A stretch of 64,000 nt of DNA from Quatrionicoccus australiensis (GTDB lineage: Bacteria > Pseudomonadota > Gammaproteobacteria > Burkholderiales > Rhodocyclaceae), in the NCBI RefSeq assembly GCF_020510425.1, contig NZ_JAHBAH010000001.1:2151001-2215000 (forward strand), given 5' to 3'. Shown in pieces: positions 48,764 through 59,311 of the stretch; positions within the stretch are counted from its first letter, which is position 1, and every line of letters starts with the position of its first letter. Both the position numbers and the translations under genes were made by a program. Under the pieces are notes generated by a model that saw only the letters and a list, made by a program, of their open reading frames with translations, had not been told where the DNA came from and did no database searches.

Positions 48764-49369
48764 GTGGCAACTAACCTGCTTGAACAACGGCGGCATCAGC
48801 GTATTCGTTTTGGCAATCCGCCACCGATACAGATTGGTTACGGCGGAAGTATCGGCGAAGGTGCCATTGTCAATCTTTCGCTCTCTGGTTTGATGGTGCG
48901 TACGGCCCTTGAACTGGATATCGGCCACGTGGCCGGTTGCGAGTTTTCGCTGTTCGGGTCGCCCGTGATCGACGTTCCGGTGACCGTGGTCAGTCGGGTT
49001 GGCGATTTGTTCGGTGCGCGTTTCCAGACTGGGCCGATCAACCAGATCATCATTGACGACGCGATCAGCTCAGCCCTGGCTTCCGGACAAGCTTCGATCC
49101 TGTCGGTCAACGACCTGGCCGGGCGCAAGGTGATGCGTATTTCCGGCGGTCTGAATGGCGCTTTGGAGAGTGATTTCATGCATGCCCTGACCCGGGTCGG
49201 CATTCACGAAATGGACCTTGCCGGCGTGACGACTGTCGATCAGGCTGGCCTGGCATTGTGTCGGGCGGCAACGAGCTTGCATGGTGTGACGATTGGCGCC
49301 CGGTCGGAGGCATTCTCCGGCGCCTGGAATCTGGCTCTGGCCATCGCGGGTGAGGTTGAAGGTCCTTGA
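48764..49369 (+). CDS. PilZ domain - STAS-like domain protein
   Basis: About 201 residues from GTG 48764. Residues ~8-95 form a PilZ-type c-di-GMP receptor, with EQRRHQRIRFGNPPPIQIGY (RxxxR) and AIVNLSLSGLMVRTALELD (NxSxxG). The C-terminal part (AGRKVMRISGGLNGALESDF to the end) resembles a STAS/MlaB-like anti-sigma-antagonist fold, with HEMDLAGVTTVDQAGLALCR. The serine usually phosphorylated is replaced (DQAG), so it is probably a non-phosphorylated binding module. Its stop overlaps the TonB-receptor TTG start (TTGA). Confidence 0.8.
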   Translation: MATNLLEQRRHQRIRFGNPPPIQIGYGGSIGEGAIVNLSLSGLMVRTALELDIGHVAGCEFSLFGSPVIDVPVTVVSRVGDLFGARFQTGPINQIIIDDAISSALASGQASILSVNDLAGRKVMRISGGLNGALESDFMHALTRVGIHEMDLAGVTTVDQAGLALCRAATSLHGVTIGARSEAFSGAWNLALAIAGEVEGP

Positions 49370-51450
49370 ACCCCTTGTTTCCCGTAAAAATTTTTGCCAA
49401 ATCGTGTCCGCGTCTCCTTTTTCCTGTGGGGCTACTGTGTCTTGCGACAGCAGCCATGGCCGAAGATGAAGCCATTTATTTCAGCGATCTGCCGGTTGTT
49501 GCATCGGTCAGTCGTCTGCCGCAAAGACTGGCCGATGCACCGACGGCAGTGACGGTGATCGATCGCGACATCATCAAGGCATCCGGTGCGCGCGATCTGA
49601 ACGATATATTTCGTCTGGTGCCCGGCTTCCAGACTTATCCGAATACGACTGAGACGGCGCGGGTCAGCTATCACGGGATGGGGGAGGGCGAGTATGGGGC
49701 GCGAGTACAGGTTTTGATCGACGGGCGTTCGATGTATTCGCCCCTGTTCGGCGGTGGCGTCAATTGGGCAACCTTGCCGGTGGCACTGGACGATATCGAG
49801 CGTATCGAGGTCGTGCGCGGTACCAATGCCGTCTCTTACGGCAGCAATGCCTTCCTTGGCGTGATTAACATCATTACGGTTGATCCAGCGCTGACGCATG
49901 GTCTTTCGCTGTCGACCAGTTTCGGCAACCAGAATGTCCGCGATTACAACTTCAGGTTAGGCGGAAAAATCGGGGAAACAGGCGATTTTCGTTTCACTTT
50001 CAAACAGCAGAATGACGACGGTCTGACTAATCGTTACGACTGGGTTGATTCATATTTTTCTCGACTGGTTGATCTACGGGCCGATTTTTCCTTGTCCGAT
50101 CGAGATAGTCTGCAGGTTAGTCTGGGGCAGGCGGAAGGCGTGAGCCAGGTTGGTCGGCTGGGCAGTATGATTTCTATTCCCGGTTTGCCGCCGATTGACG
50201 GCGACCCGATACGCGACCTCAAACAAAAGGATATTTATGTCCAGCTCTTGTGGCGCCGGGTGTTCTCTCCTGGTTCAGACCTGCAAGTGCGCTATTCCTA
50301 TGTTGAGGATCGATCAAGCGATGCTTTTTCAGTCAGCATTCCGGGTCAGAGTTATGTTTTTAATCAGTCGGGTGACGAGGGGGTTCGGCATGAGATTGAG
50401 CTCCAGCATAGTCTGAAAATGGCGGAATCCGCACGCCTTGCCTGGGGGGCAAGCTGGCGTGATGATGGGACTCGTTCGAAGTGGTCCTTGTCAGGGCGAG
50501 GGATGGTGCATCGAGATGTCAGTCGTTTGTTCGGTAATCTGGAGTGGAAGCCTGTCCGATGGTTTACCGGCAATGTCGGTATTGCAGGAGAAAATGATTC
50601 GTTGGCCGGATTTCACCTGTCCCCCAGGCTAAGTACCAACTTTCACCTGAATGCAGAAAATACGCTCAGACTCGGGGTGTCAAGAGCGTATCGAAATAGC
50701 AGTACGGTTGACTATCTTGGCAATGCGAAGGTGATACTTGCTAACACGTTGATTTATAACGTGTATCAAGGGAATCGAAGTCTTCCGTCGGAGCGCCTGG
50801 ATACGGTTGAGGTCGGTTATCTGGGTGACTGGCGTGACTGGCGGGCGAGTCTGGATGTACGGCTGTTCAGTGAAAAAATCTATGATCGATTGTTCAGAAT
50901 AGATTTGGGAACCGGAGCCTCAGTACCGGATACCACTTTGCCGGATGCCACGGTACCAATACAGAATATCCACATCTACGGTGTCGAATATCAGTTCAAA
51001 TGGCAACCTTTTGACAATACTCGTTTGCTTGTCAATCAGGCCTTTACCCGGGCCGATGCGGATTACCTTGCTTCGGCCTTGGGTTTGTCGGGATCGACGC
51101 TGGCCAATGCGTCCGATGCACAGAAAATCGATTACTTCACCGAGCATTCAATGCCGCGGCGCTCAAGCTCACTCCTGTTGATGCAGAAATTACCGTTCGG
51201 ACTTGATTTTTCGATCGCCGGATACTGGCAGGACATGATGAAGTGGACAACGAATACCTCTTCAGTCAAATACCAACGTTACGATGCGCGCCTGGGCTAT
51301 CCCTTCCGTTTTAGTGGTTTACGCGGTGAGTTTGCGCTTACCGTGCAGTCGCTGAACGGCACCCACAGCGAATACAAGTCCAGCATTAATAATCCCGACG
51401 GACGTCTCGTCGAACGTCGTCAGTGGCTGAGCCTGCGACTGGATTACTAG
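49366..51450 (+). CDS. TonB-dependent receptor
   Basis: This outer-membrane gated channel has about 694 residues. The signal peptide (~32 residues) ends LATAAMA. A plug domain (RLADAPTAVTVIDRDIIKAS, GSNAFLGVINIIT) precedes a 22-strand-type barrel that ends LVERRQWLSLRLDY with terminal aromatic. It starts at TTG 49366, coupled to the PilZ gene. The substrate (siderophore, cobalamin or other) is not evident. The barrel region is visibly less GC-rich than its neighbours. Confidence 0.93.
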   Translation: MNPLFPVKIFAKSCPRLLFPVGLLCLATAAMAEDEAIYFSDLPVVASVSRLPQRLADAPTAVTVIDRDIIKASGARDLNDIFRLVPGFQTYPNTTETARVSYHGMGEGEYGARVQVLIDGRSMYSPLFGGGVNWATLPVALDDIERIEVVRGTNAVSYGSNAFLGVINIITVDPALTHGLSLSTSFGNQNVRDYNFRLGGKIGETGDFRFTFKQQNDDGLTNRYDWVDSYFSRLVDLRADFSLSDRDSLQVSLGQAEGVSQVGRLGSMISIPGLPPIDGDPIRDLKQKDIYVQLLWRRVFSPGSDLQVRYSYVEDRSSDAFSVSIPGQSYVFNQSGDEGVRHEIELQHSLKMAESARLAWGASWRDDGTRSKWSLSGRGMVHRDVSRLFGNLEWKPVRWFTGNVGIAGENDSLAGFHLSPRLSTNFHLNAENTLRLGVSRAYRNSSTVDYLGNAKVILANTLIYNVYQGNRSLPSERLDTVEVGYLGDWRDWRASLDVRLFSEKIYDRLFRIDLGTGASVPDTTLPDATVPIQNIHIYGVEYQFKWQPFDNTRLLVNQAFTRADADYLASALGLSGSTLANASDAQKIDYFTEHSMPRRSSSLLLMQKLPFGLDFSIAGYWQDMMKWTTNTSSVKYQRYDARLGYPFRFSGLRGEFALTVQSLNGTHSEYKSSINNPDGRLVERRQWLSLRLDY

Positions 51451-51454
51451 CCGT

Positions 51455-53548
51455 TCAGGCGGAGCGGATAACGGCGCCTTCCAGCCATACTTCGAAGGGT
51501 TCGCAGGGCGCCACCGCCAGTCCCTGGGCATAGCTGATACCGAGTTCTTCGAGTTGCTGCAGCTTTGCCGGATCGTTGATGTTGTCGGCGATCGAGTGAA
51601 TGTCGAGATCGGCGGTGATTTCCTGCACCGCACGCAAGAGTGCCGTCGAGGCGCGATTGCCGCCGAGGTCGCGGGTCAGGCTGCGGCTCAGTTTGACGCA
51701 GGCCGGTGCAATGGCACGCAGGTGGCTGAACGAAGAGAGTCCGCCACCGAAGTCGTCGAGCCCGACCTGGCAACCCAGGGCGCGGACCTGGCGCGAGAAT
51801 TCGAGTGCCTGGCTGTTGTGGTGCGTCGTCACATCTTCCGAAAAAATCAGGCAAAGCCCGTCGCCCGGCAGGTTGTGGCGGGCCAGGTTGCGGGCAATCA
51901 AGTCGATGATCGCGCGGCGGCCGAGCGATGTGCGGGAGAGCGGGATCAGGCAGTGCAATTGCTTGTTGTGGCGGCGCGCGCGGTCGATGGCATTAATCGC
52001 CGTTTCTATGAAACGCTGGTCGATGCTTGACGCCAGATCATAGCGTTCCGCCGCATCGATCAGGGCCGACAGCGCAATCGGCGCTTGCCCCGGTTCATGC
52101 AGACGGGCGCTCAGTTCGACGTAGTGATAGCCGGGGGCGTCATTTTGCAGCGCCTTGAGCGGCAGGGCCTCGATCAGCAGGCGGTCTTCGGCCAGCGCGC
52201 TGGCAATGCGTCCGGCCCAGTTGTTGCTCTCCTGGCGGCGTTCCGGCACGTTGCTGGTTTCCTGCTCACAGACCTGGTTGCGACCACTTTCCTTGGCGCG
52301 GTAGCAGGCCGAGTCACTGGCGGCGAGGACTTCATTGATGTTGCGTACCCGCCGGCTGACGGGCGTCAGACCGATACTGGCGCCGATCGCGAAAACCTTG
52401 TCCTGCCAGATGAAGCGGTAGGCACCGGCGAGGCCACAGATGTCATCTGCCACCTGCCGGGCGCGGGCGCCACTGCAGTTGGCGAGGATGATGCCGAATT
52501 CGTCGCCGCCGAGGCGGGCCAGGGTGTCTTCTTCACGCAGGCGCCCCTGGAACAGTTGCGAAATCTGGCGCAACAGTTCGTCGCCGGCCAGGTGGCCGCA
52601 GGTGTCATTGACCGGCTTGAAGCGGTCGAGGTCGAGCAGCAGGACGCTGAATTCCTCGCCGCCGGCCTGGACGGCCGAGAGCGCCTTATCCAGGCGGTTC
52701 TCGAACTCGCGCCGGTTGAGCAGGCCGGTCAGCGCATCGTGGCGGGCCTGGAAAGCGAGTTGGGCGGTGGCCTCCTCGATCCGGCTCTGCATCGAGTGAT
52801 GGACTTCCTCGAGGTGGTTGGCCATCTCGTTGAAGCCATGTTCGAGAATGCCGAGTTCGGCGCTCGAATGAGTCGGCACGCGCGTGTCGAGGCGTCCCGA
52901 GGACATCTCGCGTACTGCCTGGACAAGGCGCTTGAGCGGGCGGGCCAGGCTGTCGGCCATGGCAATCGCGAGCAGGGCAATGCCGATCAGTCCGATGAAA
53001 ACAATGATCAATCCACGCAGCAGCAACTCGCGCTGCTGATTGATCAGTTCGGTCTTGTCGAATTCGATGAAAACATGACCAATCACTTCCGGCGGGGTTG
53101 GCTTGGTGTTGCTCGATACCGGCTCGAACAGCGCGTCGCTTTCGTTCTGCGAGCGCAGCACGGGCGCGCCGAAGGCGATCCAGCTTTCGGTTTCGGTGAC
53201 CATTTTCGGTCCGTCCAGCGACTGGCGGAGGATCTCGCTGGCCAGCGAAACGCGGCCGCCGACGGCAATGGCGCGGCCTTTCGGACTGACGATGATGGTT
53301 GCCTTGACATCCGATTCCTGGATGGTGGTCTGGGCCAGCCCGTGCAGGCTCTCGATTTGCCCGGAAATGATGCCGTATTCACTGATCTGGGCGAGATAAC
53401 GCACGGTGGCGAGTGCCTTGGTGCGCAATTCGCCTTCCAGGGTCTGGATACCGCTCAGCGTGAAATAGGAGACCAGCGTAATGGCGATAGCGGCACTTGG
53501 CAGGAGCGAGAGCAGCAAGAGTCGCTGGCGGAGGTTGAGGCGAGTCAT
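51455..53548 (-). CDS. Membrane HAMP-GGDEF-EAL protein, EAL degenerate
   Basis: This is a 697-residue c-di-GMP signalling protein. An N-terminal membrane helix, a periplasmic sensor region (~35-185), a second helix (LIIVFIGLIGIALLAIAMAD) and HAMP lead into a GGDEF domain with an intact GGDEF signature (residues 347-351). The EAL-like domain (~440-690) lacks key residues: ELSARL replaces EALVR, KLSR replaces KIDR, and IADNIN replaces the catalytic-glutamate segment. It is therefore likely a cyclase with a non-catalytic binding EAL. It overlaps the ABC-binding gene by four bases. Confidence 0.9.
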   Translation of the reverse strand: MTRLNLRQRLLLLSLLPSAAIAITLVSYFTLSGIQTLEGELRTKALATVRYLAQISEYGIISGQIESLHGLAQTTIQESDVKATIIVSPKGRAIAVGGRVSLASEILRQSLDGPKMVTETESWIAFGAPVLRSQNESDALFEPVSSNTKPTPPEVIGHVFIEFDKTELINQQRELLLRGLIIVFIGLIGIALLAIAMADSLARPLKRLVQAVREMSSGRLDTRVPTHSSAELGILEHGFNEMANHLEEVHHSMQSRIEEATAQLAFQARHDALTGLLNRREFENRLDKALSAVQAGGEEFSVLLLDLDRFKPVNDTCGHLAGDELLRQISQLFQGRLREEDTLARLGGDEFGIILANCSGARARQVADDICGLAGAYRFIWQDKVFAIGASIGLTPVSRRVRNINEVLAASDSACYRAKESGRNQVCEQETSNVPERRQESNNWAGRIASALAEDRLLIEALPLKALQNDAPGYHYVELSARLHEPGQAPIALSALIDAAERYDLASSIDQRFIETAINAIDRARRHNKQLHCLIPLSRTSLGRRAIIDLIARNLARHNLPGDGLCLIFSEDVTTHHNSQALEFSRQVRALGCQVGLDDFGGGLSSFSHLRAIAPACVKLSRSLTRDLGGNRASTALLRAVQEITADLDIHSIADNINDPAKLQQLEELGISYAQGLAVAPCEPFEVWLEGAVIRSA

Positions 53549-54453
53549 CGGGCATCCTTGTCGGCGAGCATGGCGCGGCGGATATCGGCTTCGTCGGGGA
53601 GATTGAGGTTGAGCGCCTGGGCGACGTTCTGGTTGATCTGGACGGCAAACTGGCTGGGCGGCATCGGCGCGGGCAGCGTGTTGGTGAATGCAAGGACAAG
53701 TTCCGCGCTCTGGCGGGCAATCTGGGCCGGGGTCGAGTAGAGCGCGGCGAGCGCACCGGCATTGACCAGGGCAGCGGAGAAGGCGACCACCGGGCGCTGA
53801 TGGCGGTAGGTGGTGACCAGGATGGCCTTGATGTTGTCGCGCTTGTAGATGTTGGTGTCGGGCGTGGCGAGCAGTACGTGGACCCGGGACAAGAGCGTAG
53901 ACAACGCTGGCAACAGGGTCCGGTCGGTATCGCTTTCCTCGCTGTCGAGAATCAGGCCTGCCGCATTGAAGGCATGTTGAAACTGATTGTTTTGCGGCCG
54001 GGTTTCGGCGCTGATCAGCATGCCAATGCGGTTTTTGCCGGGCAGCAGTTGACGTAGAAAGGAAGCTTGTCTGGCCGGTGGCTGGTCGAGATAGATGGCG
54101 GTCAGGCGCCGGTTGCGGCTGCCGCTTTCGGCGACCAGCTTGTCGTAGACCTGGCGCGGAATCAGTGTCGCGATAATCGGTGTGCTGCCGCCGCGGCCCA
54201 GTACCTGGCGCAAGGCCGTGCTGCCGGCGGCGATGATCAGGTCGGCGCGCTCCGTGCCATCCTCGGCGGCATCGAGCCCGACCGGGTAGCGGCTCAGTTT
54301 CCAGTTGCTGCCATCAAGGGCATCGCGCAGGGTGGCGCTGAATTCGGCATAGGGCCCGGTCGATTCGCTGAGTACCAGCGCGACGTTGCCGGCCCGCGCC
54401 AGAGGAACGACCAACAGAAAGACGAACAGGAGGCGCAGGGTGGCCAGAACCAT
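53545..54453 (-). CDS. Periplasmic ABC_sub_bind family protein
   Basis: About 302 residues with signal peptide MVLATLRLLFVFLLVVPLAR followed by AGNVALVLSESTGPYAEF. It is the two-domain periplasmic binding fold of the PF04392-like family (ADLIIAAGSTALRQVLGRGG, PIIATLIPRQVYDKLVAESG, LVLAFTNTLPAP). No ABC permease or ATPase gene accompanies it. Instead it is co-transcribed with the HAMP-GGDEF-EAL protein, suggesting a ligand-binding partner of that sensor. ATG 54453 is chosen because earlier in-frame codons encode non-signal sequence. Confidence 0.85.
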   Translation of the reverse strand: MVLATLRLLFVFLLVVPLARAGNVALVLSESTGPYAEFSATLRDALDGSNWKLSRYPVGLDAAEDGTERADLIIAAGSTALRQVLGRGGSTPIIATLIPRQVYDKLVAESGSRNRRLTAIYLDQPPARQASFLRQLLPGKNRIGMLISAETRPQNNQFQHAFNAAGLILDSEESDTDRTLLPALSTLLSRVHVLLATPDTNIYKRDNIKAILVTTYRHQRPVVAFSAALVNAGALAALYSTPAQIARQSAELVLAFTNTLPAPMPPSQFAVQINQNVAQALNLNLPDEADIRRAMLADKDAR

Positions 54454-54606: not shown

Positions 54607-55431
54607 TCAGCGACCGGCCGGTGCTTTCGCGGGCGGCGCGAAATCGAGCAGTTCGAGGAGCAGGGGCAGGCCTTCGCTGATTGCGACCGGGCCTGGCGTC
54701 AGGATGATCGCCGACTTGATTTCGTGCAGGCGGCCGTTTTGCACCGCCGTAACGGTCGACCAGCCGGCACGGGCAGAAATGCGCTCCGGCCGGAAGTGCT
54801 TGCCGCACCACGAACCGATGATGACTTCCGGATCGCGCCGGACGATTTCCAGCGGCTCGGCCAGGATGCGGTCGCGCGCCAGTGGCGAGCCGGCGCGTTC
54901 GGGAAATATGTCGGTGCCGCCGGCGATCTCGATCAGCTCGGACACCCAGCGCACGGCGGTGATGTTCGGCTCGTCCCATTCCTCGAAATAGACGCGTGGC
55001 CGGTGGCCGCTGCGCGCCAGTCGTTCGGCGGCAATGGCTCTGGCGGCCTCGATCTGCGCTTCCAACTCGGCAACCAGTTCCGCTGCCTTGGCTTCGGCCC
55101 CGACCAGCCGGCCCAGGGTTTCGATCATGCCGAGGATGTCGTCCACGCTGCGCATGTTGAAGGCGTAGACCGGCACGCCGGCCTTGATCAGGTCGCGCGC
55201 GATGTCGGCCTGCAGGTCGGAGAAGGTGAGCACCAGATCGGGCTGCACGGCGAGGATCTTGTCGATGTCGCCGCTGGTGAAGGCATAGACCTTGGGTTTT
55301 TCCTTGCGCGCCTGCGGCGGCCGTACCGTGTAGCCGGAAATGCCGGCGATGCGATCCTGCTCGCCGAGCGCGTAAAGCACTTCGACGGTTTCGGTGGTCA
55401 GGCAGACGATACGTTGCGGCAGGCGGCTCAT
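54607..55431 (-). CDS. BtuF-like cobalamin-binding protein, no signal peptide
   Basis: About 274 residues in the BtuF/periplasmic-binding-like fold (RIVCLTTETVEVLYALGEQD, RIAGISGYTVRPPQARKEKP; later IIGSWCGKHFRPERI). The best start ATG 55431 gives no signal peptide. Many betaproteobacterial cobalamin-binding proteins of this type lack one and may act in the cytoplasm or use another route. It is seven bases after the secreted paralogue, in the cobalamin operon. Confidence 0.82.
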   Translation of the reverse strand: MSRLPQRIVCLTTETVEVLYALGEQDRIAGISGYTVRPPQARKEKPKVYAFTSGDIDKILAVQPDLVLTFSDLQADIARDLIKAGVPVYAFNMRSVDDILGMIETLGRLVGAEAKAAELVAELEAQIEAARAIAAERLARSGHRPRVYFEEWDEPNITAVRWVSELIEIAGGTDIFPERAGSPLARDRILAEPLEIVRRDPEVIIGSWCGKHFRPERISARAGWSTVTAVQNGRLHEIKSAIILTPGPVAISEGLPLLLELLDFAPPAKAPAGR

Positions 55432-55438
55432 GCGGGCT

Positions 55439-56326
55439 TCATTTCGGGCGATGACTGCGTGCGACATCGAGGTGCGCACAAAGTTTCTCGGCGCCCTCGA
55501 GAATGCGTGGCGTGTGGCGCTGCATGATGTCCGGGTTGATGTGGAACAGGTTATTACGCTTGACTGCCGTCATGCGCGTCCATTTGTCCCAGTCGTGCAG
55601 CCATTCCGGCCGGGCGTCACCCATGCCGGTGGCGATGATGGCTTCGGGGTCGGCTTCAAGCACCGCTTCGACACTGACCGTCGGCGCCATCTTGGTCATC
55701 TGCCCGAAGACGTTGTCGCCGCCGCACAGGCGGATCGCATCGGTGATGATCTGCTGGCCGCCGACTGTCATCAGCGGCGATTTCCAGATCTGGTAAAAGA
55801 CGCGTACCTTGGGTTTGCTTGCATTGGCGGCGCGCAGCTTTTCCATGCGCTGGCGGAAACTGGCGGCCGCCGCATCGGCCACCGCCTGCGTGCCGGCCAG
55901 CTGGCCGAGCTGTTCGAGCTGAACGGCCACATCGGCCATCAGGTTGGGCTGGGTGATGAAGACGGTCAGGCCGAGGGCGCGCAGCTTGTCGATCTGGACG
56001 GCGGCATTGCCGCTTTGCCAGGCGATGACCAGGTCGGGTTTGAGGGCGGCGATGGCTTCCAGGTCGAGGCGCGAATAACCGCCGACGCGCGCCACCTTCT
56101 TCGCTTCCGGCGGGTAGTCGCTGTAATCGACGGTGCCCACCAGGTAAGTGCCGGCGCCAGCGGCGTAGAGACTTTCCGCCGAATGCGGGGCGAGCGTGAC
56201 GATGCGCCGGGCCGGCGCCTTGAGGCGGACATCCTGGCCGCTGTCGTCGCGCACCACGATATCGGCGTGCGCGGCGGACAAACAGGCGAGCGCAGCGGTC
56301 AACGCCGTAAAAAGGCGCATTTTCAT
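55439..56326 (-). CDS. Periplasmic cobalamin/corrinoid-binding protein (BtuF-like)
   Basis: About 295 residues with signal peptide MRLFTALTAALACLSAAHA and the iron/cobalamin siderophore-binding fold (RRIVTLAPHSAESLYAAGAG, VARVGGYSRLDLEAIAALKP, GTVDYSDYPPEAKKV). It probably captures corrinoids or cobinamide for import. ATG 56326 overlaps the cobC stop as ATGA. The transporter permease and ATPase are not in the window. Confidence 0.85.
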   Translation of the reverse strand: MKMRLFTALTAALACLSAAHADIVVRDDSGQDVRLKAPARRIVTLAPHSAESLYAAGAGTYLVGTVDYSDYPPEAKKVARVGGYSRLDLEAIAALKPDLVIAWQSGNAAVQIDKLRALGLTVFITQPNLMADVAVQLEQLGQLAGTQAVADAAAASFRQRMEKLRAANASKPKVRVFYQIWKSPLMTVGGQQIITDAIRLCGGDNVFGQMTKMAPTVSVEAVLEADPEAIIATGMGDARPEWLHDWDKWTRMTAVKRNNLFHINPDIMQRHTPRILEGAEKLCAHLDVARSHRPK

Positions 56327-57307
56327 GCCTGGCTCCATTCGCCGAGGGCGGCGCCCAGGCGTTGCCAGGCGGTCTCGCCATCGGGCAGGCCAAAGCGCAG
56401 CAGCGCCTGCTGTTCGAAACGGCGGACCAGGATGCCACGGCGGGCGAGGAACTCATGCAGTTCGGCCGGCTGGTCGCAGGTCAGCGTCGCAAACAGCGCC
56501 GTGCTCCTGACCTCGCCGTGCGCGCTCAGCAAGGCGTGCAGGCGCTGGCTGGCGGCGTGCAGGCGCTCGCGTGCCGCCGCTTGCCAGGTTGTGTCCTGCA
56601 GCGCCAGCCGCGACGCGGCGCGGGCCGGACCGGCGATGGTCCACGGCCCCATCGCTTCCTGCATGCGGTTGAGCAGGTCGGGGGCGGCGAGGACGAAGCC
56701 GACGCGGGCGCCGGCCAGGCCGAAGAACTTGCCGAGCGAACGCAGCACGATCAGGTTAGGCGCCTCCTCGGTGCCGGCCAGGCTGGCCAGGCTTTCCTCC
56801 GGCGTCGGATCGATGAAGGCTTCGTCGACGATCAACCAGCCGCCGCGCTTTTTGAGCTGTTGCGCGGCGTCGACCGCGACGGCGCGCGGATGCTGGTCGG
56901 CGGTCGGGTTGTTCGGGTTGCACAGCAGCACGTAAGGCGTCGCGACGCCCAGGGCACGGCTCAGGGTCGCATTCTGCAGAAAACGCAGGCGATGTCCGGC
57001 GCGTTGCCAGGCCTGCGGGTGTTCGGCATAGATCGGGCTGATGCAGGCGACGACAGCGCGCGGCAGCAGGGTCGGCAGCAACTGGATGGCGGCCTGCGAG
57101 CCGGCGACCGGCAGCAGGTTGGTGTTGCCGTAATAGGCGGCGGCCGCGGCTTCCAGGCCGTCGCCGGCTTCCGGCAGGCGTTGCCAGACTTCCGGCGGCA
57201 ACGGCGGCACCGGCCAGGCCTCGGGATTGATGCCGGTCGACAGGTCGAGCCAGTCGGCGAGCGGGATATCGTAGTGGGCTGCGGCTTCGCGCAGGCGTCC
57301 GCCATGC

Positions 57308-57315
<8 letters not shown>
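56323..57315 (-). CDS. cobC: Threonine-phosphate decarboxylase (CobC/CobD)
   Basis: This 330-residue PLP enzyme of the aminotransferase I/II fold makes the aminopropanol-phosphate side chain of cobalamin. [20 protein letters not shown] and [20 protein letters not shown] are conserved, and the PLP lysine lies in [20 protein letters not shown]. In an operon with cbiB and bluB the assignment is firm; histidinol-phosphate aminotransferase is the main alternative fold. It overlaps cbiB by eight bases. Confidence 0.93.
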
Positions 57316-59195
<1,880 letters not shown>

Positions 59196-59311
59196 GAAGG
59201 CGAGAGGATATCAGGAGGGGGCGGGGGAGGGCGATGGAATTGGCGTTGAATCAATCATCATCAGCCTGATTTGGCTAACTTAACCGCCCGGGGGCTTGAA
59301 GGGTTTTTGCG

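Follow-up and report, generated by a model that had tools for sequence, protein, structure and literature searches.

A Conserved Gene Unit of TonB-Dependent Receptor, ABC_sub_bind Protein and sCache_4 Sensor with Varied Signalling Outputs in Quatrionicoccus australiensis and Other Proteobacteria

Introduction

Why would a gene for a periplasmic binding protein of the ABC transporter kind lie beside a membrane sensor and a TonB-dependent receptor (TBDR)? The question is raised by a stretch of 64,000 nucleotides from Quatrionicoccus australiensis (contig NZ_JAHBAH010000001.1, positions 2,151,001 to 2,215,000), here called the window, in which four neighbouring genes encode a PilZ-domain protein, a TBDR, a membrane sensor with GGDEF and EAL domains and a periplasmic protein of the ABC_sub_bind family (PF04392). 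A first-pass annotation, made from the letters alone, had joined all four into one cyclic di-GMP (c-di-GMP) signalling unit, an idea that it would have given up if homologues showed no linkage or if the ABC_sub_bind gene were normally found next to ABC permeases. In this study we find that the linkage of the ABC_sub_bind, TBDR and sensor genes is not accidental, and that the module which they form has several outputs, of which c-di-GMP is one. We consider it reasonably probable (roughly 0.6) that the three proteins act as a three-compartment relay, in which the TBDR would admit or sense a ligand and the periplasmic protein would pass it to the sensor.

Linkage of the Unit Across Genomes

The ABC_sub_bind protein of the window was searched against 150 genomes of the same family, and all 114 places found were fetched and classified; they include the window itself, two canonical transporter proteins (L140 and L143) and fragments. 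A match is present in 96 of the 150 genomes and in 52 of 68 genera. The gene directly downstream encodes a sensor in 89 of the 114 loci, although the search models were built from this family set, which biases its counts toward detection. Among these 89 loci, 56 have a TBDR upstream in collinear order, 6 (the window and its close relatives) have it convergent behind the sensor, 1 ends at a contig edge, and in 26 a TBDR was undetected. The 25 remaining loci comprise 16 with TBDR and binding protein and no sensor, 4 cut by contig ends, 2 with a TBDR elsewhere and 3 with neither partner, two of which are the canonical transporter proteins. Of 88 sensor-bearing loci, the window counted, 78 show a four-nucleotide overlap between the binding-protein and sensor genes, with starts chosen by script. 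Ten of the loci with ABC_sub_bind and TBDR and no sensor (L081, L127 and L131-L138) have an upstream cluster in common, represented in L081 by lipid A genes of the lpxD, lpxA and lpxB types; in one of the ten a very long frame containing RTX calcium-binding repeats comes after the TBDR and ABC_sub_bind pair (L132:7838-15001).

The same arrangement was found beyond this set. A named set, the best 80 of 301 loci (Dechloromonas, Azonexus, Sulfuricella, Undibacterium, Thiobacillus, Methylotenera, Azoarcus and others), contains a sensor in 75, both partners in collinear order in 35 and a convergent TBDR behind the sensor in 20. Scans that used a binding-protein alignment as the query gave matches in 87 of 369 genomes and 70 of 272 genera of the class (E <= 1e-12), and in 48 of 299 genomes and 25 of 154 genera of a phylum sample, with the window genome counted in both. 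From the class, 69 loci were fetched out of the 71 strongest non-self matches (E <= 5.4e-44; G248, G371 and weaker matches were left out); a TBDR is present in 54, a sensor in 64 and both in 51. An initial group of 58 non-self loci from the class and phylum scans divides into 42 with both partners, 11 with the sensor only, 2 with the TBDR only and 3 with neither, two of these last adjoining a permease. Class and phylum loci took no part in model building. Because the sets partly overlap (L031 and L172 are one contig, and the family set contains L293 as well), their counts are given separately and are not added up.

That the genes are chance neighbours with no joint function therefore has a negligible probability. 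The orientation of the TBDR, which differs in the window clade, is all that speaks in its favour; the linkage in family, class and phylum loci, together with the distance correlations given below, rules it out, and conservation across families contradicts it already. The linkage on which the first-pass annotation had staked its idea is kept at all three levels, and the layout of the window recurs in its clade, the three-gene core far beyond. Its four-gene unit nevertheless has to be redrawn: TBDR, binding protein and sensor stand as the core, and the PilZ gene drops out as a member, since it was found in 23 of the 194 loci of the family and named sets, every one in the Dechloromonas/Azonexus clade to which the window belongs.

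A Constant Front End with Varied Outputs

Pfam matched an sCache_4 domain in all ten of the module sensors scanned, followed by HisKA-HATPase-REC in 4, HisKA-HATPase in 1, HisKA_3-HATPase in 1, GGDEF in 2 and GGDEF-EAL in 2. On a quick tree of the binding proteins (99 labelled modules) the label kinase or cyclase switches at least 8 times, compared with a mean of 26.6 and a minimum of 22 for shuffled labels. Among 104 complete modules (57 from the family and 47 from the class) the distance matrices correlate at 0.77 for binding protein and sensor, 0.60 for binding protein and TBDR and 0.64 for TBDR and sensor, values that include the relatedness of the species; shuffled matrices give 0.18 or less. 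The 64 sensors of the class loci were assigned by our own models to 56 kinases and 4 cyclases, with 4 unresolved, so the c-di-GMP form is a minority outside the relatives of the window.

The flanking genes change between lineages while the unit persists, the neighbours being PurL-type and leucyl-tRNA synthetase genes, MTHFR and lpx genes, a CoA-transferase gene, cysM and rlmD, or gpsA, fabA and fabB. Because the scanned flanking genes are lineage-specific and mostly housekeeping, gene context points to no ligand.

Transport or Signalling

As a control, PF04392 itself was searched in the same 150 genomes and 30 loci were fetched. Eight places score above 360 bits; seven of them were fetched, and BPD_transp_2 lies next door in all seven. 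The other 23 control loci contain 5 units of the TBDR-ABC_sub_bind-sensor kind, 5 genes beside kinase or GGDEF/EAL genes (L240, L241, L242, L244 and L248), one locus (L262) with a sensor match and no binding-protein match to our own model, and 12 with no partner recognised by our own models, to which one permease type is known. The permease-linked PF04392 proteins are a separate, high-scoring group. In L247 and L255, PF04392 lies inside frames of about 800 aa and is possibly fused to other domains.

Of the 194 loci in the family and named sets, only L140 and L143, both weak-scoring canonical matches, have a permease of the BPD_transp_2 type; the permease model was derived from a single protein (L140) and would miss other types, and these types and ATPases had no systematic scan. 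Adjacency to permeases, which the first-pass annotation had set as a ground for dropping its idea, is thus not the rule in the TBDR- and sensor-linked group. An ABC_tran gene is present in a neighbour cluster that spans 37 loci, mostly at a distance of 4-6 kb; the representative of the cluster carries ABC_tran_Xtn and is probably an ABC-F protein and not a transporter ATPase. Ten window proteins scanned with Pfam yielded no permease or ATPase domain of a transporter, in agreement with the first-pass annotation, so the adjacent permease that would mark a PF04392/TrpX-type transporter protein is missing among them.

These results bear on an explanation in which uptake comes first: a nutrient would enter through the TBDR and the ABC_sub_bind protein with the help of an unlinked transporter of the inner membrane, and the sensor would only monitor or regulate uptake. 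TBDRs are normally importers, the name of the domain family refers to ABC transport, and the 16 family loci with TBDR and binding protein alone would suit such a role. On the other side stand the absence of transporter permease and ATPase domains from the 10 window proteins scanned, the rarity of BPD_transp_2-type permeases in the 194 loci, the sensor gene that follows the binding-protein gene, mostly with the four-nucleotide overlap, in the majority of family loci, and the 26 loci that keep binding protein and sensor with no TBDR detected. We judge uptake as the primary function to be unlikely.

We prefer the three-compartment relay. Here the outer-membrane TBDR would admit a scarce extracellular molecule or signal that it is bound; the periplasmic ABC_sub_bind protein would bind the molecule and dock on the sCache_4 domain of the sensor, feeding no permease; and HAMP would transmit the change to the output. 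A pairing of periplasmic binding protein and HAMP sensor is the best reading of these two proteins. In the window the ligand level would then set c-di-GMP, the output being a putative diguanylate cyclase whose EAL partner domain is degenerate, and a likely local effector of c-di-GMP would be the PilZ protein, encoded in overlap with the receptor; in relatives the same front end would drive histidine kinases, BarA/GacS-like ones included. Ligand binding, contact between the proteins, the direction of the effect, the enzyme activity and the role of the PilZ protein are steps that we infer.

Several points weigh against the relay. The TBDR could serve plain uptake; 26 family loci have no detected TBDR and 16 no sensor; the family counts are biased toward detection, the permease model is narrow, and the module correlations include species relatedness. 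In three clade members (L150, L157 and L158) no TBDR was detected although the remaining genes persist, which means that the receptor is no obligatory part of the unit. Lastly, sensors of the sCache_4 type can bind ligand directly: Escherichia coli BarA is reported to bind acetate via its own periplasmic domain (PMC8639471).

The Locus in the Window

An open reading frame check and Pfam bear out the four genes (Table 1). They form two internally overlapping pairs, as had been described: on the plus strand TTGA joins the PilZ stop to the TBDR start, and on the minus strand the sensor starts inside the ABC_sub_bind stop, with ATGA as the four-nucleotide overlap.

Table 1. Features of the window, with positions counted from its first nucleotide
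Feature	Position	Strand	Support
PilZ-domain protein, 201 aa	48764..49369	+	Pfam PilZ 2.3e-10
TonB-dependent receptor (TBDR), 694 aa, TTG start	49366..51450	+	Pfam Plug 3.6e-22, TonB barrel 2.3e-16
Membrane sensor sCache_4-HAMP-GGDEF-EAL, 697 aa	51455..53548	-	Pfam GGDEF 3e-40, EAL 3e-39, HAMP 5e-14
sCache_4 periplasmic domain of sensor, aa 35-173	53030..53446	-	Pfam 1.1e-6; BarA model covers aa 1-264
GGDEF domain of sensor, aa 268-425	52274..52747	-	Pfam; REEDTLARLGGDEF in clade alignment
Degenerate EAL domain of sensor, aa 473-681	51506..52132	-	Pfam; substitutions by alignment
ABC_sub_bind (PF04392) periplasmic protein, 302 aa	53545..54453	-	Pfam 2.7e-9; family alignment
Two Peripla_BP_2 (BtuF-like), aminotransferase, CbiB-type and nitroreductase (BluB-like) genes	54607..58974	-	Pfam; B12 names partly inferred
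Cobalamin riboswitch (context, outside core)	59019..59204	-	Rfam RF00174, 106.6 bits

The domain list of the first-pass annotation omitted the periplasmic sCache_4 domain of the sensor, which Pfam matches here at 1e-6. It is this domain that ties the sensor to BarA/GacS, and the NCBIfam BarA model aligns with the N-terminal 264 residues of the sensor. In the alignment the sensor retains an intact GGDEF motif and RxxD site (REEDTLARLGGDEF); among those listed from 34 aligned clade and nearby sensors, the GGDEF motif is kept in 32 of 33 and RxxD in 33 of 33. The metal-binding Asn and the ExTE Glu of EAL domains have catalytic roles. By alignment to solved GGDEF-EAL proteins, the window sensor carries Pro at the Asn position and Ile for the first Glu of ExTE, and the sensors listed from the same 34 have the Asn in 0 of 21 and the Glu in 0 of 20. 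The EAL domain had rightly been called degenerate, and it lacks the residues of an active phosphodiesterase; since the residues of a diguanylate cyclase are in place, the output of the window sensor is likely c-di-GMP synthesis.

The ABC_sub_bind protein scores 37.1 bits against PF04392 (gathering score 25.9), its N-terminus resembles a signal peptide by eye, and invariant residues are kept throughout the family alignment. Its relatives of solved structure include 6hni, a solute-binding protein, and 3lkv and 3lft, both annotated as uncharacterised.

For the PilZ protein, the first-pass label of PilZ-STAS held in its first half only. The RxxxR and NxSxxG motifs of PilZ domains have a role connected with c-di-GMP; they read RRHQR and NLSLSG in the window and are kept in 23 of 23 relatives in the clade alignment, the window counted. 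A STAS domain found no Pfam match (E 0.01 for the whole protein and 0.5 for the C-terminal half), and the C-terminal half is conserved across four aligned clade members without Pfam-supported STAS. In L150, L157 and L158 the PilZ gene lies right behind the sensor gene, and these appear to be natural losses of the receptor.

A TonB-box-like motif, LPVVASVSR, lies close to the N-terminus of the window TBDR, and the pattern recurs in 54 of 84 called genes directly upstream of the binding protein, a few of which are not TBDRs. Pfam matched only Plug and barrel-type domains on this receptor and no STN domain. The nearest NCBIfam model is that of the TOL_0244 TBDR (NF053590), at 200 bits and under the cut-off of 645.

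Comparison with Known Systems

LuxP-LuxQ, TorT-TorS and NspS-MbaA are pairs of a periplasmic binding protein and a sensor. They have in common with the module a binding-protein gene directly beside that of a membrane sensor with a periplasmic domain, and a GGDEF-EAL or hybrid-kinase output. The module differs in its PF04392 protein, its sCache_4 sensor and, usually, a TBDR in the unit. By analogy with these pairs, it may work as they do, with an outer-membrane receptor and varied outputs added. Among the matches listed in the open-access PMC literature there is no description of a TBDR-ABC_sub_bind-sensor unit, subscription papers being outside that scope.

FecA-FecR-FecI is a transducer that couples a TBDR to signalling, and the window likewise has a TBDR tied to signalling. 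The window TBDR is without an STN match, however, and neither FecR nor a sigma factor was found in the 10 window proteins scanned; a FecA-type transducer was dismissed on the missing STN domain. The HmrABCX system of Caulobacter was also set aside as unrelated, its TBDR being a separate transposon hit (PMC11481889).

The YfiB-YfiR-YfiN system consists of an outer-membrane part, a periplasmic mediator and a membrane output. The same three-compartment parts occur in YfiBNR and in TBDR-YfiR-sensor loci; the mediator YfiR is a PF13689 protein, whereas that of the window is PF04392. Loci with TOL_0244-type TBDRs from the class scan (L386-L415) have a parallel layout of TBDR, YfiR-like (PF13689) gene and sensor. 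These alkane-linked TOL_0244/OmpS receptors are the nearest curated family to the window TBDR, yet at 200 bits against 645, and their scanned middle genes encode YfiR-like proteins (PF13689 in 9 of 9), with an ABC_sub_bind match in 1 of 30 loci and a weak match to the sensor model downstream in 20 of 30. Receptors of the TOL_0244/OmpS type may signal through YfiR. A similarity of 40.3% is reported between TOL_0244 and OmpS, the latter being described as essential to alkane detection in Alcanivorax (PMC6304351).

These parallels make a YfiR-like, ligand-free governor the closest rival in mechanism: the ABC_sub_bind protein would hold the sensor off or on and report receptor occupancy or the state of the envelope by contact. 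The TOL_0244-type loci, with their YfiR-like middle genes and downstream sensor matches, would agree with it. The presence of a solute-binding protein (6hni) among the solved relatives, and possibly the invariant residues kept in the ABC_sub_bind family, speak against it, and we regard the governor as improbable, somewhat more so than primary uptake.

The BarA/GacS Link

Module kinases of gammaproteobacterial relatives are BarA-like over nearly their full length, at 627-796 bits in the 8 scanned, below the NCBIfam equivalog cut-off of 890. Twenty-four genomes, chosen by us among those with a binding-protein match and including that of the window, were compared further. In 14 of them the gene beside the binding protein is also the top BarA/GacS match of the genome, 13 with a TBDR and one (G396) without. 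The top match of the remaining 10 genomes, which include that of the window, lies outside the module, which speaks against the module as the input of BarA/GacS. The cut-off of 890 was passed in none of the 24, the top match outside the module reaching 846 bits. The genes cysM or rlmD were matched in 13 of 69 class loci, where flanks are often short, and both are named by NCBIfam in L326; in L342 (G639) the module-free best BarA match has cysM/rlmD-type neighbours too.

In a Pseudomonas-like locus (L322) the order is gpsA, then TBDR, ABC_sub_bind, histidine kinase, fabA and fabB. In P. aeruginosa a PA1612-PA1611 operon lies upstream of fabAB (PMC3462791), and PA1611 is a GacS-related kinase and an interaction partner of RetS (PMC4866733). 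Judging from gene order, PA1613-PA1612 would be the TBDR and binding protein of this locus. Like the module kinases, BarA/GacS and PA1611 combine an sCache_4 front end with a hybrid kinase; the 8 module kinases fall short of the equivalog cut-off, and the window sensor has a cyclase output instead. We tentatively suggest, as a possibility that we rate below even odds, that in many gammaproteobacterial families the TBDR-ABC_sub_bind pair is a dedicated input of BarA/GacS-type sensors, so that their signal would be a receptor-imported, protein-delivered molecule, with the system of the window as a c-di-GMP offshoot and PA1611 as another. The acetate binding reported for E. coli BarA (PMC8639471) also speaks against this idea. 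A 2020 review describes the ligands of the GacS sensor domain as still unknown (PMC7695008).

The Ligand Question

A cobalamin riboswitch heads a run of B12 genes on the minus strand that extends as far as the ABC_sub_bind gene of the window, and transcription coming from it could also reach into the ABC_sub_bind and sensor genes. A promoter and terminator scan gave a result under the mean of shuffled sequence, and a plasmid search returned 3 weak matches only, none informative. Two BtuF-like (Peripla_BP_2) genes within this region are adjacent and overlapping (54607-56338, minus strand). The window genome has 8 cobalamin riboswitches, two of which flank B12 genes near the unit (59019-59204, minus strand, and C1:2214965-2215150). 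Upstream of the binding-protein gene (L033:5996-6975), a SCO1/SenC gene is present in 16 clade loci and a 118-aa gene without a Pfam match likewise in 16, the window being outside both clusters.

This setting suggests a ligand, namely a corrinoid, that the unit would sense or import at least in the window clade, a hypothesis compatible with the relay. Besides the riboswitch and B12 genes upstream on the same strand, a like riboswitch was found in 9 of 10 clade loci searched, four B12-region neighbour clusters of 25-27 of 194 loci each all belong to the window clade, and a distant relative (L340:13197-18564) has a cobalamin riboswitch, a BtuB-like TBDR and BtuF/BtuC/ATPase-like genes behind the unit, these genes scoring below their curated cut-offs. 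Yet of 7 wide loci searched outside the clade, 6 yielded no such riboswitch, the scanned neighbour clusters of other lineages are not B12 genes, the SCO1/SenC gene stands between B12 genes and unit in its 16 clade loci, and two riboswitch-linked TBDRs elsewhere in the window genome are likelier BtuB candidates. The window TBDR scores 94 on the B12 receptor model against a cut-off of 600, and its identity as a BtuB-like B12 receptor is unlikely. Cobalamin as the ligand is, in our view, very unlikely. The TOL_0244/OmpS relation is a weak hint at hydrophobic compounds, the window TBDR being far below the cut-off of that family.

Concluding Remarks

Found in dozens of proteobacterial genera, the unit described here is a candidate for a protein-based path that links the outer membrane with c-di-GMP or kinase signalling, and it may be a little-noticed way to convert an outside molecule into an internal signal. 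In the BarA/GacS-like relatives, the neighbouring receptor and binding protein would offer a direct handle on the GacS ligand question. As the outputs are interchangeable, the module would also be a natural sensor toolbox.

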